Under the pieces are notes generated by a model. The model was not told where the DNA came from. It did not search any database and was given only the letters and a program-made list of their open reading frames with translations. 40,524 nt of DNA, taken from positions 1 to 40,524 of the forward strand of contig JADHZE010000010.1 of the NCBI GenBank assembly GCA_026934365.1, in the 5' to 3' direction. This document shows, in pieces, positions 2,994-24,992 of the stretch; the first letter of the stretch is position 1, and each line of letters opens with the position of its first letter. Source of the stretch: Isoptericola sp. QY 916 (GTDB lineage: Bacteria > Actinomycetota > Actinomycetes > Actinomycetales > Cellulomonadaceae). Both the position numbers and the translations under genes were made by a program.

Positions 2994-3768
2994 CGACTAC
3001 GACGTAGGAGAAGCCGCCCTCCTCGCGTCGCCGCAGGATCTCCTCGGCGGCCGCCCCGGGGTCGGCGGGCAGCTGCAGCAGCGAGTCCGCCGCGCGCAGC
3101 GCGCCGGTGTCGGTGTCGGGCGGCGCCATGAACGGGGAGACGGCATCGCCGACCACGGCCGCGTGGAACGCCAGCTCGAGGTCGGCGCGTGACCGGAGGT
3201 CCGCCGCGATCTCCATCGTGACGGCCCGCGGGTCGTCCGGCATGATCGCGACCGCCGCCGTGTCCGCGAGGTCGGCGGCGAGGGCGCGGGCCTTCGGGCC
3301 TCGCACCGCCATCACGACCGGCGTGCGCCGCGCCGCGCCGTCGAGCCGGCGGAGCAGCGCGACCGCCTCGCCCATGCGCGCCAGTCGTCGCCCGGCCGGT
3401 AGGACCGGCATGCCCAGCTCCCGCAGCTCGTCCTCGATGCCGGGCCTCCCGGCGCCGAGGCCCATCTCGAAGCGGCCCTCGGTGAGCACCGACAGGGAGT
3501 GCGCCTCCCAGGCCACGGCGCGGGCCGTGCGCAGCGGCGAGGCGTACACCCAGGTGCCCACGCGGACGTCGGCGAGCGTCGCCGCGACCGCCAGGGTGGG
3601 GCCGGGTGCCGGCTGCCACTGCTGGACGTCGGGCATCAGGAGGGTCGAGTACCCGTGGTCGGCGATCCGGCGCACCTGGTCCCGCCACGCGGGGAGGTCG
3701 GCGCCGACGGGGGCGACGACCCCGAAGCGAAAGCGCCGTGCCGGCCTGGTCGTGTGGTCGTGGGGCAT
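2994..3768 (-). pseudogene. LLM-class (luciferase-like, F420-type) oxidoreductase, 3'-truncated
   Basis: From the ATG at 3768 (ribosome site GAGAGGA about 8 nt upstream) the protein reads FRFGVVAPVGADLPAW, then HGYSTLLMPD, LAVAATLADVRVGTWV and GRFEMGLGAGRPGIEDELRE. This is the pattern of luciferase-like monooxygenases, closest to the TIGR03621-type F420-dependent group. About 257 family-like residues end at GFSYVVVGG. Complete homologues continue with a short acidic C-terminus, but here the DNA becomes carB at about 2997. The frame does not stop; it continues as a nonsense frame through carB. The last residues of the barrel are lost, so the product would carry an abnormal tail. Substrate unknown. 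Confidence 0.8.
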
Positions 3769-3885
3769 CGTCGCGGTCCTCTCGCGCAGGCGTCGTGGTC
3801 GGGACGTGCTCATCGACCGCCGGCGGGGCGCGAACTCATCGGGCGCCGGCCCGGGGCTCCCAGCCGGGACACAGCCCGCGCTGAC

Positions 3886-3891
3886 TACAGT
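3886..3891 (+). promoter_or_regulatory. -10 box of a leaderless promoter for the cyclase gene
   Basis: TACAGT is followed by six bases and then GTG at 3898. No ribosome binding site lies between them, so transcription probably begins at the start codon. This fixes the cyclase start at 3898 rather than upstream. Confidence 0.5.
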
Positions 3892-3897
3892 GGGGGC

Positions 3898-4959
3898 GTG
3901 ACGAGCGACACCACGACGGGACCCGGTCTGCCGACGGACGACGACGCCCGGCGGGCGGGGGACACCGCGGCCCGCCTGGACGAGGCGATCCTCGGCGGCC
4001 CGCGCCGGTACACGCTGTCCGACCTCGTGGAGGGCACCGGCCTGTCGCAGGAGTTCATCGAGAACTACTGGCGCTGGCTGGGGCTGCCCGTCACCCACCC
4101 CGCCGAGGTGGGGTTCACCGACGCGGACATGCAGGCGCTGCGCGAGATCGGCGAGCTCGTGGACGCCGAGCGGCTCGACGAGCAGGCCCAGATGACGCTC
4201 ATCCGCTCCCTCGGGCACACCACGGACCGGCTCGCCCTGTGGCAGGTGGAGGCGTTCGTCGAGCACCTCAGCCGCCGCGACGGCCTGGACGACGTGAGCG
4301 CGCGGCTCGCCGCCATCGACCGCATGCCGGACCTCACCTCGCAGCTCTCCCGCCAGCTCGAGCACGCCTGGCGGCGCCAGCTCGCCGCGCTCACGGGGCG
4401 GCTCGCCACCGAGTTCGGCGGCGCGCGTCGCGGCACCCAGGAGGCGCACGACGACGAGCTGCCGCTGCCGCGCGCCGTCGGGTTCGCCGACATCGTCTCG
4501 TTCACCAAGCGCACCGCGGGCCTCGGGTCGCAGGAGCTGTCGGAGTTCGTGCAGCTCTTCGAGTCCCGGGCCCGCGACGTCATCACCGAGGCCGGCGGCC
4601 GCGTCGTCAAGACCATCGGCGACGCCGTGCTGTTCGTGGCCGACGACGTCACGACGGGCGCCGAGGTGGCACTCGGCCTGGCCGCGCCGCACGCGACCGA
4701 CCCCGAGATCCCCGTGCGCGTCGCGTTCGTGTGGGGGCGGGTGCTGTCGCGGTTCGGCGACGTGTTCGGCTCCGACGTCAACCTCGCCTCCCGCATCACC
4801 GAGCTCGCCGAGCCGGCCACCGTGCTGGTGGACCCGCACACGGCGTCCCTGCTCGCGTCATCGTCCCGCTACGCCCTGACGGCGCAGCCGCCGCAGGAGG
4901 TGCAGGGCATCGGCGAGATCACGCCGGTGCGGCTGCAGCGCGCCTACACCGGGGGCTGA
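3898..4959 (+). CDS. Class III adenylate cyclase with N-terminal regulatory domain (Rv1264-like)
   Basis: The protein (353 aa) makes cAMP from ATP. Residues 1 to about 190 are helical and resemble the autoinhibitory, pH-sensing half of M. tuberculosis Rv1264. The cyclase domain follows. The first metal Asp is in VGFADIVSFT. The Lys and second metal Asp are in VVKTIGDAVLF (K-x-x-x-D). An Asp seven residues before the Asn in FGDVFGSDVNLASR, with that Asn and the Arg, gives the full purine and transition-state set, so the enzyme looks active and ATP-specific. No membrane segment is seen, so it is cytosolic. The start is the leaderless GTG. Acid activation is known for Rv1264 and only inferred here. 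Confidence 0.9.
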   Translation: MTSDTTTGPGLPTDDDARRAGDTAARLDEAILGGPRRYTLSDLVEGTGLSQEFIENYWRWLGLPVTHPAEVGFTDADMQALREIGELVDAERLDEQAQMTLIRSLGHTTDRLALWQVEAFVEHLSRRDGLDDVSARLAAIDRMPDLTSQLSRQLEHAWRRQLAALTGRLATEFGGARRGTQEAHDDELPLPRAVGFADIVSFTKRTAGLGSQELSEFVQLFESRARDVITEAGGRVVKTIGDAVLFVADDVTTGAEVALGLAAPHATDPEIPVRVAFVWGRVLSRFGDVFGSDVNLASRITELAEPATVLVDPHTASLLASSSRYALTAQPPQEVQGIGEITPVRLQRAYTGG

Positions 4960-6018: not shown

Positions 6019-6774
6019 ATGAACCTGGGACTGCAGGGGCGCACCGTCGTCGTCACGGGGGCGTCCGGGGGGATCGGGCGGCACGTCGCCGCCCAGTTCG
6101 GCGCCGAGGGCGCCGACGTCGTCCTCACGTACCGCGAGTCGAAGGACGACGCCACGCGCGTCGCGGAGGAGATCGGCGGGCGTGCGCTCGTCGTCCGCTA
6201 CGACCAGACCGAGGAGGGCGCGGCCGAGGGCCTGCGCGACGCCGTCCTCGCGTGGACCGGCCGCGTCGACGTGCTGGTCAACAACGCGGTGACCTGGAGC
6301 CCGCCGGGGGCGGACGGCCCGCGTGGCTTCGAGCACGTGCCCGACGGCGCCTGGCTCGAGACCGTGCGCGCGAACGTCGAGGGGGCGGTGCGGCTGACCC
6401 GCGCGGTCGCCCCGTCGATGCGCGCGCAGCGGTGGGGGCGGCTGGTGCACCTGTCGTCCAGCCTGGTGCGCGACGGCGACGAGGGCACGGCGTACTACGC
6501 CACCGCCAAGTCGGCGCTGCACGGGTTCAGCCGGTCGGTCGCGTTCGCGCTCGGGCGCGAGGGTGACATCCTGTCGAACGTGGTGCTGCCTGGCCTCACC
6601 AGGACGGTGCGCAACGGGGGGATCGTCGAGGCGTTCGGCGAGTCCGCGGCGGCGCGCGCCCCGCTCGGCCGCCTGCTGGACGCACGCGAGGTGGCGACCG
6701 CGATCGTCTACCTCGGGTCGGCCGCCAACACGGGCATCACCGGCCAGGAGGTCGCCGTGACCGGCGGCGCCTGA
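6019..6774 (+). CDS. Short-chain dehydrogenase/reductase
   Basis: This is a cytosolic NAD(P)H-dependent oxidoreductase of 251 aa, the usual classical-SDR length. It shows the Rossmann dinucleotide motif TGASGGIG near residue 14, NNA after VDVLV, the catalytic Ser in HLSSS, and Y-x-x-x-K in YYATAKSALHG. The C-terminal TGITGQEVAVTGG matches FabG-like enzymes. The start ATG has GAGGAG-like spacing upstream (cgaggagcacagc). Arg or Lys residues that would set NADPH preference are present at TYRESK. The substrate is unknown; it lies next to a divergent MmyB-type regulator that probably controls it. Confidence 0.9.
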   Translation: MNLGLQGRTVVVTGASGGIGRHVAAQFGAEGADVVLTYRESKDDATRVAEEIGGRALVVRYDQTEEGAAEGLRDAVLAWTGRVDVLVNNAVTWSPPGADGPRGFEHVPDGAWLETVRANVEGAVRLTRAVAPSMRAQRWGRLVHLSSSLVRDGDEGTAYYATAKSALHGFSRSVAFALGREGDILSNVVLPGLTRTVRNGGIVEAFGESAAARAPLGRLLDAREVATAIVYLGSAANTGITGQEVAVTGGA

Positions 6775-7698: not shown

Positions 7699-8928
7699 AT
7701 GCCCGACGACTCCGCGAGACTTCCGCGCGCCCGCTCTCCGTACCGTTGGGTCATCATGCTCGGGGCGCTCGCGGCGCTGCCGGCGTTCACCGTCGACATG
7801 TACCTGCCGTCGCTGCCCGAGGTAGCGGCCGACCTGGGCTCCTCCGCGTCGTTCGCGCAGCTGTCCGTCTCCGTGATGCTCATCGGCGGCGCCCTGGGCC
7901 AGCTCACGATCGGCCCGCTGTCCGACCGCTTCGGGCGCCGGGCGCCCCTCATGTGGGGCCTCGCGCTGCACGTCGTGACGTCGATCCTGTGCGCGTTCGC
8001 GCCGAACATGACCGTCCTCGTCGGGCTGCGCCTCCTGCAAGGCTTCTTCAACGCCGCGTGCGGCGTCGCGGCGATGGCGGTCGTGCGCGACCGGTTCGTC
8101 GGCGCGGAGGCCGCGCGCATCCTGTCCCGGCTGATGCTCGTCATCGGCGTCGCGCCCATGCTGGCGCCGACCTTCGGCTCCGCCGTCGCCGCGGCGGCCG
8201 GCTGGCGCTGGGTCTTCGGCTTCCTGGCGCTCGCGGGCGTGGCGATGGGCCTGGTCGTGTGGCGGTTCATGCCGGAGACGCTCCCCGCCGGACGACGCCA
8301 GACCGGCGGTGCGCGCAGCGTGTTCGCCGGCTACCGCACGCTGGTCAAGGACAAGCAGTTCATGGCGCTCGCCGTCATCCCCGGGCTCGGGCAGGCCGTG
8401 CTGATGAGCTACGTGGTCGGCTCGCCGTTCATCTTCCAGGAGGGCTACGGGCTGAGCCACGGGCAGTTCTCCGTGCTGTTCGCCGTCAACGGCCTGGGCC
8501 TGGTGCTGTCCGCGCAGGTGAACGCCGCCCTGGTGCGGCGGGTGGCGCCCATCCGGCTGCTGCGGGCCGCGCTCGCGATCCAGGGCGTCGTCGCGGTCGG
8601 GCTGCTGGCGGTGGCCCTCACCGGGGCCGGCGGGCTGATCGGCCTCCTCGCGATGCTGTGGCTGGTGCTCGCCTTCCAGGGGCTGATCCCGGCCAACGCG
8701 TCGGCCATCGCGCTGTCCCGGCACGGCGAGCGCGCGGGCACCGCGGCCGCCGTCATCGGCGCCGTGCAGTCCGGGGTCGCCGGCCTCGTGTCGCCGCTGG
8801 TGGGCGTGCTCGGCGGCGACGCCGTCGCGATGTCCTGGGTGATGCTCGTCGCGCTGGCCGGCGCGATCGCCGTGCTCGCGTTCGCCACGCCCGCCTACCG
8901 CAAGGACGGCTGGGTCAAGCTGGCCTGA
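7699..8928 (+). CDS. Bcr/CflA-type MFS drug exporter
   Basis: This is a 409-aa inner-membrane proton antiporter of the drug:H+ (12-TM) group. TM1 starts at WVIMLGALAALPAFTVDMYLPSLP, whose D-M-Y-L-P-x-x-P is the Bcr/CflA signature. GPLSDRFGRRAPLMWGL is the loop 2-3 motif A, and about 12 hydrophobic spans follow, with a long middle loop near MPETLPAGRR. Substrates in the family include bicyclomycin, chloramphenicol and sulfonamides; the one here cannot be read from sequence. No ribosome site is seen, consistent with a leaderless start. Transcribed away from the SRAP gene with less than 100 bp between. Confidence 0.9.
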   Translation: MPDDSARLPRARSPYRWVIMLGALAALPAFTVDMYLPSLPEVAADLGSSASFAQLSVSVMLIGGALGQLTIGPLSDRFGRRAPLMWGLALHVVTSILCAFAPNMTVLVGLRLLQGFFNAACGVAAMAVVRDRFVGAEAARILSRLMLVIGVAPMLAPTFGSAVAAAAGWRWVFGFLALAGVAMGLVVWRFMPETLPAGRRQTGGARSVFAGYRTLVKDKQFMALAVIPGLGQAVLMSYVVGSPFIFQEGYGLSHGQFSVLFAVNGLGLVLSAQVNAALVRRVAPIRLLRAALAIQGVVAVGLLAVALTGAGGLIGLLAMLWLVLAFQGLIPANASAIALSRHGERAGTAAAVIGAVQSGVAGLVSPLVGVLGGDAVAMSWVMLVALAGAIAVLAFATPAYRKDGWVKLA

Positions 8929-8976
8929 CGGTGAGGGTCGGGTTCGCGGCCTGATGGTGCCGGGCCGTGGGGCGTC

Positions 8977-10329
8977 CTAGGCGAAGCCGAAGACCGGCCC
9001 GAACGCCACCACCACGAGCGCCGCCCACACCGCGTACACGGGCAGGAAGCGGGTCTGCCACCGGACCAGCGCGCCGAACGGCTGCCGCTCGCGCAGGAAG
9101 CCGAGCAGGAGCAGCCCGGACCGGGCCAGGTGCACCAGCAGCAGCAGGTTGAGCCCGAGCGCGGCCACCTTGTTGGGGCTGAAGCCGAACTCGGCGATAC
9201 GGGTGAGCATCGCCGTGAGCGCGACGGCGTCCACGGCGAGCGCGGCCGCGACGAGCACCAGCTGGAGGCCGTCGAACCAGCCCGGGCGGGCGAGGGAGTC
9301 GCGGGCCGAGACGGAGTACAGCAGCAGGCAGAGCACCAGCACGAGGATCGCGTCCATGAGGATGAGCAGCTCGCGCTCGACGTCGGCCAGCCCGCCGGCG
9401 CCGAGCAGGACGACGAGCGTCACCAGCAGCATCACCGTGGTCAGCGGCGTGAAGACGCGCGTGAGGACCGGGGCGATGTTCTCCACGACGTCCTGCTTCG
9501 CCTCGACGAGCCAGGCCCCGACGACGACGGCGCCCGGCACCGCGAACGGCATGATCCAGCTCTCCATCGCGGGCTCGATGTCCATGCCGACGAGGCTCAG
9601 GGTCGCGGCCGTGAGGCCCAGCAGCACCCCGCCGCCGATCGCGAGCAGCGTCACGTAGACGACGAGCTCGCCGGTGAAGCGCGCGAAGTCCATCCGCGGG
9701 TCCTGGTCCCGCCAGCGGCCACCCACGTAGACCACGCCGACCAGCGCCCACAGCACGACGGGGGCGTGGATCGCCGCGAGGACGACGGTCGACCCCGTGT
9801 CGACGTACGGGTAGACGTTGAGCACGACGGCGAGCAGCGCGTACGGGACCAGCAGGGCGCCGACCACGCGCCGTGCGACGCGGCGCTTCCACACGAAGTA
9901 GGCGGCCAGGAACGGCGCCGTCATGAGCGGGACGTTGCGCAGCAGCGCCGAGTCCGTGTCGAAGGCCGCGAGCGCCACCTTCACCGCGATCCCCGCGCCG
10001 ACGGCGAGCGCGAGGACGACGGCGAGCTCGCGCCACGCCGGGCCGGACGCCTGCGCGGCATCGTCGTCCGGGACGAGGACGAGCTGCTTCCACAGCCGCT
10101 CGGAGTGCTCGCGCGCGAACTCGTGCGAGACGGCGTCGAGGTTGCCCATGCGGCGCACCGCGACGAGGAACGCCTCGTCGTCGTCGAGGCCCGTCGCGGT
10201 GAGGTCGTCGACCCGGCCGCGCAGGTGGTCCTCCATCTCGTCCACGTCGGCGGGCGCGATGGCGCGGTGGCGCTGCACGTACGAGCGCCACTGGTCGATC
10301 TGCGCCTCGAGGCGCTCGCGGGAGGCCAT
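8977..10329 (-). CDS. Polytopic membrane protein with N-terminal permease-prefix domain
   Basis: This is a 450-aa integral membrane protein of unknown function. Residues 1 to about 90 form a soluble helical part (LEAQIDQWRSYVQRHRAI, DEMEDHLRGRVDDLTATGL, EAFLVAVRRMGN), typical of the 'permease prefix' domain placed next to PadR regulators. About ten hydrophobic spans follow up to the C-terminal VVAFGPVFGFA. The gene starts inside the padR stop (TGATG), so it is translationally coupled to the regulator and probably repressed with it. In the family such PadR/prefix pairs respond to envelope or antibiotic stress; that role is inference. Confidence 0.8.
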   Translation of the reverse strand: MASRERLEAQIDQWRSYVQRHRAIAPADVDEMEDHLRGRVDDLTATGLDDDEAFLVAVRRMGNLDAVSHEFAREHSERLWKQLVLVPDDDAAQASGPAWRELAVVLALAVGAGIAVKVALAAFDTDSALLRNVPLMTAPFLAAYFVWKRRVARRVVGALLVPYALLAVVLNVYPYVDTGSTVVLAAIHAPVVLWALVGVVYVGGRWRDQDPRMDFARFTGELVVYVTLLAIGGGVLLGLTAATLSLVGMDIEPAMESWIMPFAVPGAVVVGAWLVEAKQDVVENIAPVLTRVFTPLTTVMLLVTLVVLLGAGGLADVERELLILMDAILVLVLCLLLYSVSARDSLARPGWFDGLQLVLVAAALAVDAVALTAMLTRIAEFGFSPNKVAALGLNLLLLVHLARSGLLLLGFLRERQPFGALVRWQTRFLPVYAVWAALVVVAFGPVFGFA

Positions 10330-19371: not shown

Positions 19372-19850
19372 GTGTCGATCGACACGCTGGCGCCCGCCGA
19401 CGCTGCCGCGCTCCTCGAGCACGAGGTGCGCGAGCTCGTGCGCCGTCGAGCCCTCGACCCCGTCCGCGACCGGGCCGGGCTGGAGCGCCTCGTCGCGGAG
19501 GCCTCCGCCGACTACACCGAGCGCGCCACGCGCGGCGTCGTCCCGGCGCTCGCGGACCCGCAGGGCACCGCGCGCGCCGTCGTCGACGCGCTCGGCGGCC
19601 TCGGCCCGCTGCAGCGCTACCTCGACGACCCCGAGGTCGAGGAGATCTGGATCAACTCTCCCGCCAAGGTGTTCGTCGCCCGGCGTGGCGTCCCCGAGCT
19701 CACGACGACGATCCTCACCGCCGGCCAGGTGCGCGACCTCGTGGAACGGATGCTCAAGGCGTCCGGCCGCCGCCTCGACCTGAGCAGCCCGTTCGTCGAC
19801 GCCTCGCTCCCGGGCGGCGAGCGCCTGCACGTGGTCATCCCCGATGGAAT
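19372..19850 (+). pseudogene. cpaF: CpaF/TadA-type secretion ATPase, 5' fragment cut by the prophage
   Basis: CpaF/TadA ATPases drive assembly of Flp/Tad pili at the membrane; the family is about 400-480 aa. This fragment holds only the N-terminal domain: LLEHEVRELVRRRALDP, ALGGLGPLQRYLDDPEVEEIWIN, GRRLDLSSPFVDASLPGGERLHVVIPD. Homologues continue with a segment ending in -VRKF and then the Walker ATPase domain. Here the sequence departs from the family right after VIPD and stops at 19944, so all nucleotide-binding motifs are missing. GTG at 19372 is preceded by AGAGGA. The rest should lie beyond the right edge of the prophage. Tad pili are probably lost in the lysogen unless another copy exists. 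Confidence 0.85.
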
Positions 19851-19940: not shown

Positions 19941-20171
19941 GTGACGACCACACCTCGATTCATCGACGTCGAGACTGTCGCGAACGAGCTCGCGATCTCC
20001 AACGCTCAGGTCTACACGCTGCTGCGCAGCGGGGAGCTCCCCGCCATCCAGGTCGGACCGAAACGTGTGTGGAGGATCGAGCGGGCGAAGCTCGAGGAGT
20101 ACATCGAGGCGCAGTACGTGGCCGTCCGTGCCGCGGTCGCGCGTGGCGACGTCGAGGTCGACGGGGTCTAG
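19941..20171 (+). CDS. MerR-like HTH (excisionase-type) DNA-binding protein
   Basis: This is a 76-aa protein made of one HTH_17/excisionase-like domain: FIDVETVANELAISNAQVYTLL, then RSGELPAIQVGPKRVWRIERAKLEEYIE, which is helix-turn-helix plus wing. It lies just inside the junction and reads toward the integrase block. GTG at 19941 follows CAGGAT by six bases (leaderless) and overlaps the stop of the broken cpaF frame. It could be the recombination directionality factor for the serine integrase, or a BldC-like regulator carried as cargo; close relatives also occur as ordinary chromosomal genes in actinobacteria. Confidence is high for the fold, low for the role. Confidence 0.8.
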   Translation: MTTTPRFIDVETVANELAISNAQVYTLLRSGELPAIQVGPKRVWRIERAKLEEYIEAQYVAVRAAVARGDVEVDGV

Positions 20172-20198: not shown

Positions 20199-20699
20199 CT
20201 ACGGCAGCCGGTTGGCCCGAAGCTCGTCGAGTTGGACCGGCCAGAGGCTCGTGATCGCCTTCGGGTGTACGACGATCGTGTGCACCGCGGCGATGCAGTG
20301 TGCGAACCTCGTCGACTGGCGCTCTAGGAACTCGCGCGCGCGTGGCTCGTCGGCATCGTCGGTCAGGCCGTGGCGCTCCCGGACATAGTGGAGCGCCGTC
20401 TCCATGATCCCTTCCGGCTTGCGCCTCGGATCCCAGGGCTCATCCGACCATCCGTGGCCGCCGTACCGCTGGAAGACCTCGGGGATGGCGCGGAATGCGA
20501 GGGGCAAGTCGATGAAACCACGGTCGTAGAGCTCAACCTCGGGCTTGCGACGTGCGACGAGGATCCGGCCACGGCCGCCGCTCCATCGCGACACCTCAAG
20601 CACGAGCACCGGCTCGACAGGGTCCGCGCCCGGCTTCCGCGCGTCGGCGGGCACGAGGCACCCATAGAGGTGGAAGACGTTGATCTCTGCGGTCAGCAC
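20199..20699 (-). CDS. Uncharacterised prophage protein (accessory block, gene 1)
   Basis: This is a 166-aa protein if it starts at GTG 20699, which lies six bases after TACCCT (20711-20706); an ATG at 20753 would add 18 residues but lies upstream of that box. I recognise no family. The first half is beta-rich (LTAEINVFHLYGCLVPADA, VLVLEVSRWSGGRGRILVARR), the second helical and charged (ETALHYVRERHGLTDDADEPRAREFLERQ), ending near VHTIVVHPKAITSLWPVQL. No signal peptide or membrane span. Base composition is less GC-rich than the host genes. It is first of three same-strand genes between the junction and the integrase. Confidence 0.7.
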   Translation of the reverse strand: MLTAEINVFHLYGCLVPADARKPGADPVEPVLVLEVSRWSGGRGRILVARRKPEVELYDRGFIDLPLAFRAIPEVFQRYGGHGWSDEPWDPRRKPEGIMETALHYVRERHGLTDDADEPRAREFLERQSTRFAHCIAAVHTIVVHPKAITSLWPVQLDELRANRLP

Positions 20700-20705
20700 C
20701 CGCCG

Positions 20706-20711
20706 AGGGTA
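20706..20711 (-). promoter_or_regulatory. -10 box for accessory gene 1
   Basis: TACCCT, six bases, GTG. Same architecture as the boxes before accessory genes 2 and 3. Confidence 0.45.
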
Positions 20712-20825
20712 CGGCTGTCCCTGACGCTGCGGAATGGGCAGACCTACCCGCATGAGTTACGCCGCCGCGACGGCGGACCCCCATACCCGCGCGAACTCGA
20801 CGTCTTAGGCGGCACTGGTACGACG

Positions 20826-21302
20826 CTAGCCGTCGGGCTTAAATTCCTTGAAGAACCATGCGCCCGAGTCAGGGATGATGCTTCGCAGGTCCTCGTCGAC
20901 GTCGAGCTCATACATGGCGACCAGGGCGGCGAGGCGCTCGCCGACCGCGGTGCGCAAGACCGTGAGGGCCTCGACAAACGCGATCTCACTGCCGACACCG
21001 GATTCGGCGAAGGTCATGAAGTTCATGAACAGCTTGCGGATCTGCCGGAGCAGCAATTCAAGGTCCCGTCCAATGCCCTCGGTCATCAACTCCTGGGTAA
21101 GGGCCTTGCGGGCGTCGGAGGCCGACGCGATCGCGTAGGCGGGCACCTCCATCGCCATCGACTGCCAGAGCATTCGGTGATCCTCCAGGATCCGTATGAC
21201 CCGGCGTGCGATCTCGGCGTCGCTCTTGAGGTACTCCCACTGAGTGCCCCCGACGGCCGTCGAGACTCCCGTGATGCGCACCCGCTTCGCCCTATTCGCC
21301 AT
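20826..21302 (-). CDS. DUF6650-like helical protein (accessory block, gene 2)
   Basis: This is a 158-aa soluble protein, almost all helical. The start RITGVSTAVGGTQWEY, followed by EIARRVIRILEDHRMLWQ and later IRKLFMNFMTF, resembles proteins I know as DUF6650 (a G-x-S...G-x-x-W start then RRVI-x-x-LEDRR); this is from memory of the pattern, not a search. No catalytic motif is visible. The ATG at 21302 lies six bases after TAACCT, so it has its own leaderless promoter. The function of the family is not known to me. Confidence 0.75.
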   Translation of the reverse strand: MANRAKRVRITGVSTAVGGTQWEYLKSDAEIARRVIRILEDHRMLWQSMAMEVPAYAIASASDARKALTQELMTEGIGRDLELLLRQIRKLFMNFMTFAESGVGSEIAFVEALTVLRTAVGERLAALVAMYELDVDEDLRSIIPDSGAWFFKEFKPDG

Positions 21303-21308
21303 GGCGGC

Positions 21309-21314
21309 AGGTTA
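21309..21314 (-). promoter_or_regulatory. -10 box for accessory gene 2
   Basis: TAACCT, six bases, ATG at 21302; no ribosome site between. Confidence 0.45.
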
Positions 21315-21393
21315 CGGCCGAGAACGAGGTCCCGCGCGGTACGGGTGACGTTGGCGATCGAGACGGAAGGATCCGACGTGAGGAAGCGGCAAT

Positions 21394-21423
21394 GCGCTCC
21401 TCACCGGGCCCGGCGGGGAGCGC
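21394..21423 (-). terminator. Hairpin downstream of accessory gene 3
   Basis: GCGCTCC (21394-21400) pairs with GGAGCGC (21417-21423) around an inner CCGGGCCCGG palindrome. It lies 63 bp past the gene 3 stop and before the gene 2 promoter is reached, so it would separate the two transcripts. No T-run. Confidence 0.45.
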
Positions 21424-21485
21424 GTTGTCGCCTATGTGTCTTGGTGTGTGATTCTCTGACGGAAATCACGTCTGAGTACAGCCGT

Positions 21486-22475
21486 CTACAGCCCGTCGGG
21501 CCGCGGAGCCAGCACCCCTGTCACCTGCTCGGCGTTCCCACCGAACACGGACTGCATCGTGGCCAGTTCCTCGTCAGTCCGTAGGAGCTCCGGCTGAGCG
21601 AGTGGCGCCAGGGCGTCGATCACATCGACCACCGCGTATTGCCGCCTTGCTACGAGCTTGCGCGCGACGTGACGCTGCGCAGTCATCGGAAGTGCGACCT
21701 CCTTCGGCAGGTTCGCATCAGCCGCAAGGAACGCCTGGACGACCTCCCAGGCGAGATAGAAGACCTCGACGAAGGCCGCATCGTATGGAAGTGGGCAGAC
21801 GACAAGGTTTCGTCGGTCGTCAATGCGGATCGCATCTGAGGCGCCCTCCTGCGACGGAACGATGCCGACGCGCAAGCCGCGTGCCCCCTCGAGCTTCGTG
21901 GGGTTGATCTTGACTGTGGTGCCGACCCACCGATCGTCGAATCGGGAGCCGAGGAACAGGTCCGCTTTCCACAGGCCGGCGATGCTCTGTGGAAGGCCGT
22001 TGCGTGCACCCTGCCTTCGGAATGCAGCGGCAGCCGTCGAGAGGTGTCGCCGGAGCTTGACCGGGTGCCCGCGGAGCCCGCTCATGAGCCGCGACTCCGA
22101 GGTGAGCGCCTCGGCTGCCGTATCGATCAGTTGCTGCGCGCCACTTTTCTCCGCACCGAACAGGATGGACCCGATGTCCTGCGTCGAGACCTTGCACCGC
22201 TTCAGGGCATCGGCCACTCTCTCGACCGTCGACGCCTCGCCTCTGGAGATCGCATCGTGGACTGCATACTCGAAGCAGATGCCGCAGTCGCCGTCACCAG
22301 GCCTGAGCAGGCGGGGAAGCATGAACAGCGGAACTTGCTCGTAGCCGCCGACGGTCTCCACCACCTCGCCCTTGAGCGAGTACAACGTGCCCTGAAGGAT
22401 CGGCCTGACGATCGCCGTCAGGGCCGACACATGGTCTGCAACAGGGTTCAGTTGCTGTTCGGTGCGGATCTCCAC
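21486..22475 (-). CDS. Uncharacterised protein with PD-(D/E)XK-like features (accessory block, gene 3)
   Basis: This is a 329-aa soluble protein with no clear family by eye. Three spaced segments resemble a restriction-endonuclease-like core: GICFEYAVHDAIS (Glu69; compare motif I G-x-x-FE), WKADLFLG (Asp172) and WVGTTVKIN (Lys189). In the last, the acidic residue of (D/E)-x-K is Thr187, so activity is doubtful or the match is chance. The region after it (RRNLVVCPLPYD, FVEVFYLAWEVVQAFL) is alternating strand/helix. Cys64 and Cys67 lie beside motif I. GTG at 22475 is six bases after TAGGCT. It is the largest gene between junction and integrase and is transcribed on its own. Confidence 0.75.
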   Translation of the reverse strand: MEIRTEQQLNPVADHVSALTAIVRPILQGTLYSLKGEVVETVGGYEQVPLFMLPRLLRPGDGDCGICFEYAVHDAISRGEASTVERVADALKRCKVSTQDIGSILFGAEKSGAQQLIDTAAEALTSESRLMSGLRGHPVKLRRHLSTAAAAFRRQGARNGLPQSIAGLWKADLFLGSRFDDRWVGTTVKINPTKLEGARGLRVGIVPSQEGASDAIRIDDRRNLVVCPLPYDAAFVEVFYLAWEVVQAFLAADANLPKEVALPMTAQRHVARKLVARRQYAVVDVIDALAPLAQPELLRTDEELATMQSVFGGNAEQVTGVLAPRPDGL

Positions 22476-22481
22476 GCTACG

Positions 22482-22487
22482 AGCCTA
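22482..22487 (-). promoter_or_regulatory. -10 box for accessory gene 3
   Basis: TAGGCT, six bases, GTG at 22475. The 152 bp from 22476 to the integrase stop holds this box and the inverted repeat at its far end. Confidence 0.45.
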
Positions 22488-22602: not shown

Positions 22603-22635
22603 GGATATTCCGACTTCTGAGAAGTCGTCATATCC
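22603..22635. repeat. 33-bp interrupted palindrome overlapping the integrase stop
   Basis: Outer arms GGATAT (22603-22608) and ATATCC (22630-22635) and inner arms CGACTTCT (22611-22618) and AGAAGTCG (22620-22627) are perfect; only two base pairs and the single centre base break symmetry. It includes the integrase stop codon. It could be a terminator, a protein binding site, or the scar where the accessory block joined the integrase. Confidence 0.8.
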
Positions 22636-24130
22636 TGACATCTGGTTGGCGAGCGGTCGGCGGTGCCGACTCCCATACCGGCCACACGTGGGCGGCTCGC
22701 CGCTCGTAGTCGACGACGACACCGTGCAGCACCTGCCGGAGGGCAGCCCGGCGCGAGTCGATCGGCAGGTCGTCCCACCGTTCGAGCAGCGTCCGTGCGA
22801 GCCCCGACGGATCCTCGGGGATCTCCACCAGGACCCGCTGGGCGTTCTCGAGTGCGGCGCTGACCTGCGCGCGCCGGCCCGTGATCTGGTCGCGTGCCGT
22901 CGTGTACGCGCCCTCGGGTACCACGCCAGTCGCGAGCTGCACCGTGAGATTCGTCAGCGCGAGGTCAAGGTCGTGCCGCTGCCGGCGCAGCCGCTCCACC
23001 TGTTGCCGGGCCCCATCGTCCTGTGCTGCCTTCGCCGGGATCAGGTTGTCGACGTCGGCTGCGATCTCGCGCAGCCAGTCCATCAGTGCGCCCTCGACCA
23101 CCGTCCGCGTCATCGACCACGAACCGTGGCCCTCAGGCTTCCCCAGCGTCGTGCACCGGTATCCGATGAACGGCGCCCCCTCGCCGCCTCCGCGCGCCCG
23201 CGACCTCTTGGTGATGGTGAACCCGTTCATCGGCGTACCGGCCGGCGTGCACGGGCACAACGCGATCCCGGACAGCAGGTACCGGCGCACTCCCTCTCGC
23301 TCGCCGGCCCTCCGCTGGCGCTCGCGGCGGTACGCCTCCCAGGTCTCGATGTCGACGAGGCCCTCGTGCGCGCCCGGGTGGGGCTCGCCGCGGTGCACGA
23401 CCATGCCGGCGTGTACCGGGGAGTCGAGGCACTGGACGATCGTCTGGTTGTCCCAGGCCGCGGCGTGCATGGGCTGGACGCCAGAGGCGGTGAGCCAGCG
23501 TGTGAGGTCGCGGATCCCGGCGCCGGCGATGTAGCGCTGATACGCCTCCACGATGAACGGCGCGGTCTCCGGGTTGGGCACGACGGCGCCGTCTTCCCAC
23601 TGCCATCCCCAGGGCAGCTTTCCTCCTGGCGGGAGGCCGCGGCGCACGCGGGAGGCGTGGACCTCGCGCCACCCCTCGCCGATGCGCTCGGCCTCGAACG
23701 CGGCGAGCTCGGCGAGCATCCCGCGCGCGAACCGGCCTGATGCCGTCTGCTCGTTCGGCTCGGTCGCGGACTCGATGCGCCCTCCGGCCGCCTCGATGCG
23801 GTCGACGGCGACCGCCCAGCGGCGCCGGTTGCGGGCGAGGCGTGAGTACTTCCAGACGACGATGACGTCGATCTCGCCGGCCTCGACGCGCTCTACGGCG
23901 GCGTCGAGCTTCGCCCACCAGGCGGACTTGGCGCGCGACCCGGAGTCGTCGATCGCGGGGACGACGCCGACGACGTCGCCAGCGAGCCGCTCGGCGTGGT
24001 CGCGGATCGCTGTCTCCTGCAGCTCGGGCGACAGGAGCCGTTCGCCGCGGCCGCCTTCCTTGGAGACGCGCACGAGGCCGAGGACGCGTGGTCGCTCGGG
24101 TGCGGCGCGCAGGCGGCGGGCAGTGGTCAT
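22628..24130 (-). CDS. int: Large serine recombinase (phage integrase)
   Basis: This is a 500-aa site-specific integrase. The N-terminal resolvase domain has the nucleophile in LGLVRVSKEG (Ser23) and the arginine cluster in DVIVVWKYSRLARNRRRW, plus EAERIGEGWREVHASRVRRG at the start of the long E helix. A recombinase domain follows (GKLPWGWQW, DLTRWLTASGV). The zinc ribbon uses LCPCTPAGTPMNG and GYRCTT, and a coiled-coil region (ARQQVERLRRQRHDLDLALTNL) ends the protein. ATG at 24130 overlaps the ImmA stop (ATGA), so the integrase is expressed from the repressor promoter, that is, in the lysogen. It acts on attP/attB and would need a directionality factor for excision. Confidence 0.95.
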   Translation of the reverse strand: MTTARRLRAAPERPRVLGLVRVSKEGGRGERLLSPELQETAIRDHAERLAGDVVGVVPAIDDSGSRAKSAWWAKLDAAVERVEAGEIDVIVVWKYSRLARNRRRWAVAVDRIEAAGGRIESATEPNEQTASGRFARGMLAELAAFEAERIGEGWREVHASRVRRGLPPGGKLPWGWQWEDGAVVPNPETAPFIVEAYQRYIAGAGIRDLTRWLTASGVQPMHAAAWDNQTIVQCLDSPVHAGMVVHRGEPHPGAHEGLVDIETWEAYRRERQRRAGEREGVRRYLLSGIALCPCTPAGTPMNGFTITKRSRARGGGEGAPFIGYRCTTLGKPEGHGSWSMTRTVVEGALMDWLREIAADVDNLIPAKAAQDDGARQQVERLRRQRHDLDLALTNLTVQLATGVVPEGAYTTARDQITGRRAQVSAALENAQRVLVEIPEDPSGLARTLLERWDDLPIDSRRAALRQVLHGVVVDYERRAAHVWPVWESAPPTARQPDVRI

Positions 24131-24546
24131 GACACGGACCTCAGGTGGCGACGGACTCGGACGGCACCGAGCGTCGCGTTCCGCCACACGTGCGCGCGCC
24201 AGAGCTCGACGAGCCGGGCGGTGACGTCGAGCTCGCGTGCGAGCGCGCCGGGGTGCGGACCGACGAGGCGCTCAGCGAGGGCGTAGTCGACGGGGCGGAT
24301 CAGCAAGCGGGCCGCGTGGACGTCGGCCTGGCGCTCGTCGCGCTCGACGTCGTGTGCCGCGGACCAGTCGTGCCCGTGATGCCAGTGCCCCATCTCGTGA
24401 GCGAGGGCGACCTTCTGGGCGAGAGCTGACTTCCGATGGTTGATGAGGACGAGGCCTGATCGTCGAAGCTCCCCGGCCCGGCGGCCGAGGTTGTCAAACT
24501 TCACGTGCAGTCCCGCCTCCGCCGCCGCGGCCAGCAGCTCGTCCAT
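24127..24546 (-). CDS. ImmA/IrrE-family metallopeptidase
   Basis: This is a zinc peptidase that in ICEBs1 and related phages cleaves the neighbouring repressor when DNA is damaged. The motif ALAHEMGHWHHGH (HExxH) is clear, with an acidic zinc ligand likely in ERDERQADVHAARLLI (E/D-x-x-A-x-x-x-A-x-x-L-L). I place the start at ATG 24546 (MDELLAAAAEAGL), where homologues begin; GAGGAG lies upstream, and TTG 24552 is also possible. An in-frame ATG at 24615 would overlap the repressor gene by 35 bases. It lies between the repressor and integrase in one operon, so it probably controls prophage induction. Confidence 0.85.
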   Translation of the reverse strand: MDELLAAAAEAGLHVKFDNLGRRAGELRRSGLVLINHRKSALAQKVALAHEMGHWHHGHDWSAAHDVERDERQADVHAARLLIRPVDYALAERLVGPHPGALARELDVTARLVELWRAHVWRNATLGAVRVRRHLRSVS

Positions 24547-24580
24547 CGTCAACTGGTTCTCCTCGTCGTTGGGGATGAGG

Positions 24581-24892
24581 TCACGGTTCCGTCTGCTGCG
24601 CCTCGGCTTCCTCATCGTCGTCGCGATCTAGCGCGGCGAGCGCGTAGTCGCCGGCCTCACCTCGCCGCAGTACCTCGCTGGCGGTCAGCCCGACCGCCTG
24701 GGCGATGAGCTCGATCTCGCCCACGCTCGCCGGCGGCGCCTCGGCGCGCAGGATGATGCCGATCCTGTTCATGGACATGCCGGTGGTGTCGGCGAGCTCG
24801 CGACGGCTGGCGCCGCTGCGCCCGACTGCGTCGGAGAGAACGCGCGCGATCTCACGGTCCAGCGGCTGCAGGGGCTTCGCGGTTCGGGCCAT
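24581..24892 (-). CDS. Phage immunity repressor (HTH XRE-like)
   Basis: This is a 103-aa HTH protein: LDREIARVLSDAVGRSGASRRELADTT, then MSMNRIGIILRAEAPPASVGEI, ELIAQAVGLTASEVLRR, a lambda-repressor-like four- to five-helix domain followed by an acidic tail (DRDDDEEAEAQQTEP). It should bind the three operators just upstream. The start is taken as ATG 24892, seven bases after TACAGT; ATG 24910 lies inside operator 1 and lacks a ribosome site. It is the first gene of the operon repressor-immA-int. Confidence 0.85.
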   Translation of the reverse strand: MARTAKPLQPLDREIARVLSDAVGRSGASRRELADTTGMSMNRIGIILRAEAPPASVGEIELIAQAVGLTASEVLRRGEAGDYALAALDRDDDEEAEAQQTEP

Positions 24893-24899
24893 GTCTCGG

Positions 24900-24992
24900 A
24901 CTGTACCCATTTCGGTTCAACCGCGCTAGAGCGCTTGACGGCGGACCGAAATGGGTTCACGATGGCGACCATGAACCCGAACCGAAATCGGT
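24900..24992. promoter_or_regulatory. Lysogeny switch: three operators and two divergent leaderless promoters
   Basis: The 12-mer ACCGAAATGGGT occurs at 24945-24956, its reverse complement at 24905-24916, and the variant ACCGAAATCGGT (fully palindromic halves) at 24981-24992. The minus promoter has TACAGT (24905-24900) seven bases before the repressor ATG; the plus promoter has TTGACG (24935-24940), a 17-bp spacer, CACGAT (24958-24963), then seven bases to ATG 24971. Operator 1 abuts the repressor -10 box, operator 2 fills the spacer of the rightward promoter, and operator 3 lies inside the first codons of the Cro-like gene. Confidence 0.8.

Follow-up and report, generated by a model that had tools for sequence, protein, structure and literature searches.

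Antiviral hotspots are carried by phages and satellites, as described in PMC9122126, and PMC10654092 names lysogenic expression and linkage to the integration locus as properties of known phage defence systems. A 2026 study (PMC13092281) links five DUFs to anti-phage defence for the first time, DUF6650 among them; 42 of the 94 DefensePredictor units tested were validated, and the DUF6650 domain falls within the validated set. The locus analysed here, in a window of 40,524 nucleotides (the whole stretch of DNA under study), resembles the prophage and satellite hotspots of the first two sources in carrying accessory genes beside integration functions, with expression in the lysogen expected. It differs from them in that the site is filled in one prophage and vacant at most related loci.

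The block of three genes (ORF1 to ORF3) lies in a genuine prophage, with terminase, portal and protease genes further along. The prophage interrupts a host cpaF/tadA-type secretion ATPase gene (Table 1), which showed 91% DNA identity across 473 nt to the intact cpaF-type gene of a genome of the same genus (G405) and none past position 19844. The C-terminal half of the interrupted gene was located on a different contig (G000:C68), with attR at about C68:21225. On contig C395, 18 bp match the attL region, but the similarity ends with those bases and the match was dismissed as chance. Between attL and ORF1 there is also an Xis-like gene, overlooked in the sequence-only reading of this DNA, whose 76-aa product is a possible candidate for the recombination directionality factor.

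Table 1. Features of the block and its surroundings (positions in the window).
Feature	Position	Strand	Basis
Host cpaF/tadA-type secretion ATPase gene, N-terminal half, interrupted by the prophage	19372..19844	+	DNA comparison with G405
attL junction	19836..19850	.	breakpoint ~19844
Xis-like HTH_17 protein, 76 aa	19941..20171	+	Pfam HTH_17 7.4e-11; TIGR01764 4.2e-10; phrog_66 5.6e-9
ORF1	20199..20699 (166 aa, GTG); 20199-20753 (184 aa, ATG at 20753)	-	ORF call
-10-like TACCCT, 6 nt ahead of ORF1 GTG	20706..20711	-	
ORF2, DUF6650 protein, 158 aa	20826..21302	-	PF20355 4.1e-10; phrog_29952 3.6e-13; family alignment
-10-like TAACCT, 6 nt ahead of ORF2 ATG	21309..21314	-	
ORF3, phrog_30306 family, 329 aa	21486..22475	-	phrog_30306 7.4e-102; alignments; AF2 model
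-10-like TAGGCT, 6 nt ahead of ORF3 GTG	22482..22487	-	
Large serine integrase	22628..24187	-	Pfam Resolvase 3e-19, Recombinase 9.9e-13; phrog_95 1.1e-80
ImmA/IrrE-type Peptidase_M78 protein (context gene)	24127..24615	-	Pfam
HTH repressor-like protein (context gene)	24581..24910	-	HTH_31 1.8e-5; 25.4 bits, under the curated cut-off (27)

The interval from the integrase gene to the attL junction measures 2.78 kb and holds the Xis-like gene together with ORF1 to ORF3, all three of which were found on one strand as the sequence-only reading had listed them. That reading had also stated that attP usually adjoins int and that the inserted genes have clearly lower GC, and both statements held. We fetched eight related integrase loci, six of them with a measurable junction, and attP adjoins int at five of the six; at loci L102, L103, L104, L106 and L108 the int stop codon lies at most about 25 bp from the cpaF-type junction or inside it. 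The GC content of the block was 0.655, compared to a mean of 0.733 (SD 0.019, minimum 0.698) across 666 other segments of the same length. At third codon positions, GC was 0.79-0.86 in ORF1 to ORF3; the remaining prophage genes for which it was determined had 0.865-0.96. A PADLOC HMM search with ORF1 to ORF3 returned zero matches up to an E value of 10.

In leaderless actinobacterial genes the RTG start follows TAnnnT at a distance of about 6-7 nt. TAnnnT stands exactly 6 bases ahead of the start in all three genes of the block (starts 22475, 21302 and 20699), a spacing that was picked post hoc after inspection and that for ORF1 suits the internal GTG rather than the longest ORF. Of the 1243 ATG/GTG starts in the window that belong to ORFs of 60 aa or longer, 7 (0.56%) show the same spacing, and three of the six TAnnnT on the minus strand of the block are those at the ORF1 to ORF3 starts. 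Judged by their letters, the three starts match the leaderless pattern, and the earlier suggestion that each gene has its own promoter-like element gains support. Mycobacterial leaderless translation is described in PMC4633059 as needing just an RTG at the transcription start, which is both necessary and sufficient. An element at similar spacing was present in two ORF2 homologues (L060 and L061) and, for ORF3, in three homologues that rank among the closest (L004, L046 and L069; 64-66% identity). Overall it was found in only 5 of 29 ORF3 homologues, one of which (L008) has it off the start codon, and this count does not bear out the element as a common feature of ORF3 homologues.

The assignment of ORF2 to DUF6650, suggested earlier as a resemblance, was confirmed by a PF20355 match of 40.2 bits against a curated cut-off of 27, spanning profile positions 2-82 of 150. 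Homologues are 25-52% identical to ORF2, and two plasmid proteins annotated as DUF6650 align with it over most of its length. The genes for these two proteins each overlap a downstream gene, not the same one, and an all-against-all comparison of the DUF6650 homologues found no common partner gene; a search of IMG/VR for DUF6650 found none. The validated unit of PMC13092281 contains another DUF6650 member, not ORF2, and the putative defence role of ORF2 is supported at the level of the domain. With that source, the earlier remark that no known defence family is recognised in the block is out of date for ORF2.

The phrog_30306 profile matches ORF3 along its full length (342.3 bits, residues 1-326); for this family a Pfam match is absent. 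PD-(D/E)XK nucleases have E in the first helix, D before a strand and x-x-K after the next strand. In an alignment of 37 distinct members, 25-66% identical to ORF3, E69, D172, [T/S]-x-K189 (T187-V-K189 in ORF3) and N191 were invariant (37/37). The AF2 model (pLDDT 84.5, pTM 0.81) places E69 in helix 64-77, D172 before strand 173-177 and K189 after strand 182-188, positions that resemble those of the corresponding residues in PD-(D/E)XK nucleases such as McrC. Those nucleases, in contrast, have D/E two residues before K, where the ORF3 family has T (28 of 37) or S (9 of 37) in place of the second acid. The conserved residues fit a PD-(D/E)XK-like nuclease, strengthening an earlier hint from weak segments of this protein, but fold and profile searches give no confirmation. 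At E ≤ 0.001, Foldseek returned nothing for the first model (PDB and BFVD) or the second (PDB), which does not exclude the fold; its 35 non-significant matches include two chains of McrBC complexes (E = 2.0 and 4.2, subunit unspecified). A relationship to McrC was rejected, as profile comparison with McrC-family proteins did not outperform shuffles. We also rejected a cysteine protease, raised by a ubiquitin thioesterase match in PDB near GDGDCGIC (E = 1.9), since C67 is variable with added relatives and missing in the H66-like group, and dismissed matches to Daxx, ScoC and EspC as weak.

The ORF3 family is scattered over several phyla, in prophages, on plasmids and also among ordinary chromosomal genes. 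Homologues were recovered at 24 loci in species genomes (37-66% identity), as well as on IMG/VR contigs and plasmid records. Its occurrence is patchy, with 3 of 296 genomes of its phylum (own genome counted) and 4 of 50,697 phage records, two of which are the same phage, H66. Pseudomonas phage AUS531phi encodes a phrog_30306 protein 57% identical to ORF3 (QGF21369.1) and H66 a more distant member (AGC34616.1), and in both phages the gene lies near genes annotated as C5 methylases. Using phmmer (E 1e-4), relatives of these methylases at other ORF3 loci were detected only in the IMG/VR copy of H66, in a search so insensitive that the pair missed each other; the only integrase that ORF3 loci had in common was a serine recombinase in L064, a weak match. 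Scans for methylase motifs by regex were blank even for the annotated AUS531phi methylase and are hence uninformative. Methylase families at E ≤ 0.001 numbered zero among the 10 prophage proteins of the window scanned, a set covering part of the prophage.

We then considered 135 neighbours of ORF3 homologues, called by a custom GC-frame caller that missed low-GC3 genes, which makes the counts approximate. Each Pfam family matched at most three of them; among the 25 of 85 families listed, two MTase_II models had one member each and no single defence family was enriched. PADLOC gave the ORF3 family just single-member matches (E 0.02-0.06). At L005, L011, L012, L017 and L019 the checked neighbours were ordinary chromosomal genes, and phage head genes beside the L017 homologue were ruled out, with gyrase B and a decarboxylase found there instead. 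The sequence-only reading had looked to defence islands around the homologues and had held scattered housekeeping homologues against its proposal; the former found no backing in the families listed, and the latter is touched by these chromosomal cases. From the distribution and the nuclease-like signature we infer a possible defence role for ORF3. That it founds a new single-gene family of phage-defence nucleases across phyla (in prophages, on plasmids and as lone chromosomal genes), with a divergent E/D/[T/S]-x-K site and no partner methylase, is a tentative proposal that we think may well be wrong.

ORF1 gave zero matches in Pfam, PHROG, NCBIfam and PADLOC, and homologue searches yielded nothing convincing, so it is an orphan within those searches.

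What the sequence itself shows is where the block lies, how its composition departs from the rest, that ORF2 and ORF3 are distributed separately, and that the three starts have the form TAnnnT-6-RTG. On balance, we regard it as probable, if modestly so, that the block is lysogen cargo and anti-phage at least in part. The cargo would be that of a temperate tailed prophage and sits past the 3' end of int, in the stretch that leads to the attachment site. In the lysogen, each gene would give its own leaderless transcript, outside the lytic programme. At least ORF2, and probably ORF3, would then shield the lysogen from other phages, ORF2 as a small DUF6650 defence protein and ORF3 as a metal-dependent PD-(D/E)XK-like nuclease that needs no partner and cleaves incoming nucleic acid through E69, D172 and K189. 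Resident DNA might be spared by a trigger, by DNA state or by modification, and ORF1 would be a passenger. The earlier claim of lysogenic-conversion or defence genes gains support as to cargo status. Its defence part is backed at domain level for ORF2, is conditional for ORF3, and finds no evidence at all for ORF1.

Any lysogenic cargo would suit the position and promoter elements of the block, and the genes could instead give the lysogen a benefit unrelated to phages. Any function of ORF1 and ORF3 is putative, and the presence of ORF3 homologues near ordinary chromosomal genes is in keeping with such conversion. We nevertheless consider it rather unlikely, given the published defence evidence for DUF6650 and the PD-(D/E)XK domains in 13 of 31 further validated systems reported in PMC13092281. 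The latter point is tempered by the same source, where 1 of 24 low-scoring units tested gave defence, six of the 24 being PD-(D/E)XK nucleases, so that a nuclease fold alone is a poor predictor of defence, which also counts against the reading of the block as anti-phage. Members of the ORF3 family in phage genomes, and a homologue lodged between terminase and portal at L013, would fit a gene for replication, packaging or an anti-host nuclease. This phage-function account we judge improbable, because the family is rare in phage records and also occurs on plasmid records (phage-plasmids possibly included) and near chromosomal genes, and because ORF3 itself adjoins int with its own promoter-like element, apart from the identified replication and packaging genes.

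The shared strand and close spacing of ORF1 to ORF3 might suggest one multi-gene system, for example a toxin-antitoxin pair with an effector. Homologues of ORF2 and ORF3 did not co-occur outside the window among the first loci compared, each gene has a separate promoter-like element, and no Pfam family recurs in more than three of the 135 neighbours, making a joint system very improbable. Low GC and the orphan status of ORF1 are what decaying, functionless foreign DNA would also display; with intact ORFs, gene-like codon-position GC, conserved catalytic-type residues in ORF3 and start-site elements in place, we find decay scarcely credible.

Should the reading of the block as partly anti-phage cargo be true, it would add a cross-phylum single-gene defence candidate that is invisible to Pfam and PADLOC, with specific ORF3 residues named for testing. 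DUF6650, only lately tied to defence, would also gain a place in a prophage whose host is actinobacterium-like, and a simple search rule would be on offer: look between int and att for genes that each have a start of the leaderless type.

The element in the window is a real prophage. The genome is assembled as 4.43 Mb in 438 contigs, one of which is the entire window (40,524 bases), and a cpaF-type gene is interrupted at the attachment site (table below). The intact cpaF-type gene of a congeneric species matched the window at 91% identity over 473 nt and not at all beyond that. The C-terminal half of the interrupted gene was found on another contig, C68, with non-homologous sequence ahead of it, which places attR at about C68:21225. 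A PHROG scan of ten further window genes revealed ParB-like, endonuclease, exonuclease, terminase, portal and head protease proteins (4 of the 10 had no match), and the best phage matches of the terminase were from Gordonia (52% identity) and Mycobacterium (49% identity) phages. Together with the GC content, these features suggest an actinobacterial host. Against NF047737, an HTH model for MADS defence, the Xis-like gene scored 22.5 bits, well short of the cut-off of 80. In the host flank, AT skew goes from −0.32 to +0.34 inside 2 kb (8001-10000).

Features at the attL side of the prophage
Feature	Coordinates	Strand	Placement
cpaF/tadA-type secretion ATPase gene	start 19372, interrupted at 19844		
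Xis-like HTH gene	19941-20171	plus	right of attL
ORF1	20199-20699 (from GTG)	minus	right of Xis-like gene
ORF2	20826-21302	minus	right of Xis-like gene
ORF3	21486-22475	minus	right of Xis-like gene
Large serine integrase		minus	right of ORF1-3
ImmA-type protein, then repressor-like HTH protein			beyond integrase

We searched 221 genomes of the same family for the integrase (E ≤ 1e-40) and found it in 9, own genome counted, at 11 places altogether; 8 of the 10 places other than the window's own were compared, 6 of them with a cpaF-type gene at the junction. At four of these loci, which share a common cpaF site (L102, L103, L104 and L106), and at L108, where a different cpaF-type gene is cut at another point, the integrase stop lies at most about 25 bp from the cpaF match or within it, bearing out for this integrase group the premise of the sequence-only reading that attP normally adjoins the integrase gene. 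The distance at L107 is about 0.7-0.85 kb, according to the stop chosen, and neither L105 nor L109 matched cpaF, which left no distance to measure. Since the integrase adjoins the junction at five of the six related loci that could be measured and lies 2.78 kb from it in the window, the block is an addition. The window's prophage is reversed in cpaF relative to the four loci with the common site: its integrase faces the N-terminal half of cpaF, theirs the C-terminal half. The centre of the integration site, GACGTC, is palindromic and could permit either orientation. In one relative, L105 and L106 are near-identical integrase copies about 38 kb apart on one contig (G347 C1, ~4.12 and ~4.16 Mb), by whose start lies a third, partial match, an arrangement suggestive of repeated prophages of this group.

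The GC content of the block is 0.655, against a mean of 0.733 and a minimum of 0.698 in 666 other windows of equal length. Its minus strand holds six copies of TAnnnT, which we take to be an actinobacterial -10 element, and three of the six lie exactly 6 bases ahead of the starts of ORF3, ORF2 and ORF1 (for ORF1, the GTG at 20699); across the window, 7 of 1243 ATG/GTG ORF starts show this arrangement. The 6-base spacing was picked post hoc and the ORF1 start chosen along with it, so that the naive probability of ~2e-7 is too small; a chance origin of the three spacings is unlikely. The Xis-like gene has a variant, CAGGAT, 6 bases ahead of its GTG. Judged by this placement, ORF1-3 would be transcribed from the TAnnnT elements, and all three begin with RTG, a start that suffices for leaderless translation in mycobacteria according to an excerpt of PMC4633059. 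At 6-7 nt, the arrangement is present ahead of ORF3 homologues L004, L046 and L069 (64-66% identity) and absent ahead of L016, L021, L047 and L048; altogether 5 of 29 ORF3 homologues have it, one of the five (L008) not at a start codon. Among ORF2 homologues L061 and L060 have it (the latter with its start moved to the ATG at 6428), and it is absent ahead of L062, L067 and L068, the L058 start not being located. The local background was 0 to ~1% in the 11 loci counted. Present in near homologues and missing in others, the element is common to the nearest relatives, not family-wide.

ORF2 matches DUF6650 (PF20355) at 40.2 bits (Pfam cut-off 27) over the first half of the protein, and aligns along nearly its whole length with 3 genome-encoded proteins and with 2 plasmid proteins that are annotated DUF6650. 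Its homologues are rare (2 of 198 phylum and 4 of 200 family genomes, own counted in both); 10 plasmid records match, and no match was seen in 50,697 phage records or in IMG/VR. ORF2 also matches PHROG family 29952, which was made from phage proteins. Near homologue L060 lies a 385-aa protein (3049-4206) whose opening segment may be TIR-like, and near L062 lies a ParB-like gene that shares 36% identity with its counterpart in the window. A literature search for DUF6650 found PMC13092281 alone, which lists five DUFs, DUF6650 included, as newly linked to defence among the 42 units validated out of 94 tested. ORF1 had no homologue in phages, plasmids, IMG/VR, 296 phylum or 200 family genomes, bar one short match (66 residues, E 8.3e-4), and codon-position GC supports its being a gene.

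With a second, H66-like branch at 25-28% identity added to the alignment, G65, F68, E69, H73, S103, E109, L161, W169, D172, K189, N191, G200 and F235 are invariant in 37 ORF3-family sequences, and position 187 is T in 28 and S in 9. The pLDDT of the AlphaFold2 model rose from 79.7 to 84.5; in it, E69 lies within helix 64-77, D172 directly ahead of strand 173-177 and K189 directly after strand 182-188. E, D and K thus stand in the order and positions typical of a PD-(D/E)XK active site, with T/S in place of the second acid. Foldseek gave no match to the model at E ≤ 0.001, its second search of the PDB listed two McrBC-complex chains at a non-significant E of 2.0 and 4.2, and against seven McrC-family proteins the ORF3 profile did not outscore controls with reversed or shuffled columns. 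The PD-(D/E)XK hint of the sequence-only reading in this 329-aa protein gains some support from residue order and placement and none from the Foldseek or McrC comparisons. We hypothesize that ORF3 is, with fair probability, a nuclease. Having a nuclease fold says little about defence by itself: in PMC13092281 one of 24 low-scoring units, six of the 24 being PD-(D/E)XK, protected.

ORF3 is a full-length member of phrog_30306, with no Pfam match above cut-off, none in NCBIfam, none of its own in PADLOC and none in the PDB at a meaningful E-value. Species genomes contain relatives at 24 loci (37-66% identity in the best segments), under record titles from Actinomycetota, Pseudomonadota, Bacillota and Myxococcota, to which metagenome bins add other groups. 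Further relatives were found at 9 and 15 IMG/VR loci (overlapping sets, partly repeating genome contigs), in 4 of 50,697 phage records, H66 accounting for two, in 4 of 72,556 plasmid records, two of which belong to one Streptomyces, and in 3 of 296 phylum genomes, own counted. The neighbourhood check proposed with the sequence-only reading showed no single enriched defence family: PADLOC matches were scattered, DolB being commonest, in 3, among the best 25 of 85 families listed. No Pfam family matched more than 3 of the 135 neighbours called at 28 loci; portal and AAA were commonest (3 each), those at 2 included terminase, Clp protease and antirepressor, and integrase was among the PHROG families matched twice. 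Ten neighbours were checked singly. At L013, an Aureimonas contig, terminase and portal flank the homologue on either side; at L005, L011, L012, L017 (both sides) and L019 the neighbours are ordinary chromosomal genes (asparaginase, trigger factor, Hsp90, DHDPS-type, and gyrase B and decarboxylase at L017); that at L021 is pectate-lyase-like, and that at L016 had no match. Prophages and plasmids thus carry the gene, which also stands alone in chromosomes; it is scattered and apparently mobile, yet not restricted to mobile elements. A contig of the same length and match as L013 is classed as viral in IMG/VR. In Pseudomonas phages AUS531phi and H66 (L002 and L003), genes annotated as C5 methylases lie near the homologue, a link that an insensitive test did not reveal at other loci, and an excerpt of the AUS531phi paper (PMC7546807) has no word on the homologue. 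A literature search by protein accession and PHROG number, a weak test of absence, found no paper, and the family appears undescribed.

In the loci that were compared, homologues of ORF2 and ORF3 never turned up together, which makes a single system of ORF1-3 unlikely; three independent cassettes would be the simplest reading. It is possible that ORF3 is a phage-function gene or serves fitness otherwise. Cargo next to an integrase is of a known kind. Excerpts of PMC10654092 describe lysogenic expression and a tie to the integration locus as properties of known phage defence systems, a statement concerning toxin cassettes, for which the same paper says direct support is lacking, and an excerpt of PMC9122126 describes antiviral hotspots carried by phages and satellites. 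On the simplest reading, that of three independent cassettes, ORF2 and, probably, ORF3 would shield the lysogen from competitors.
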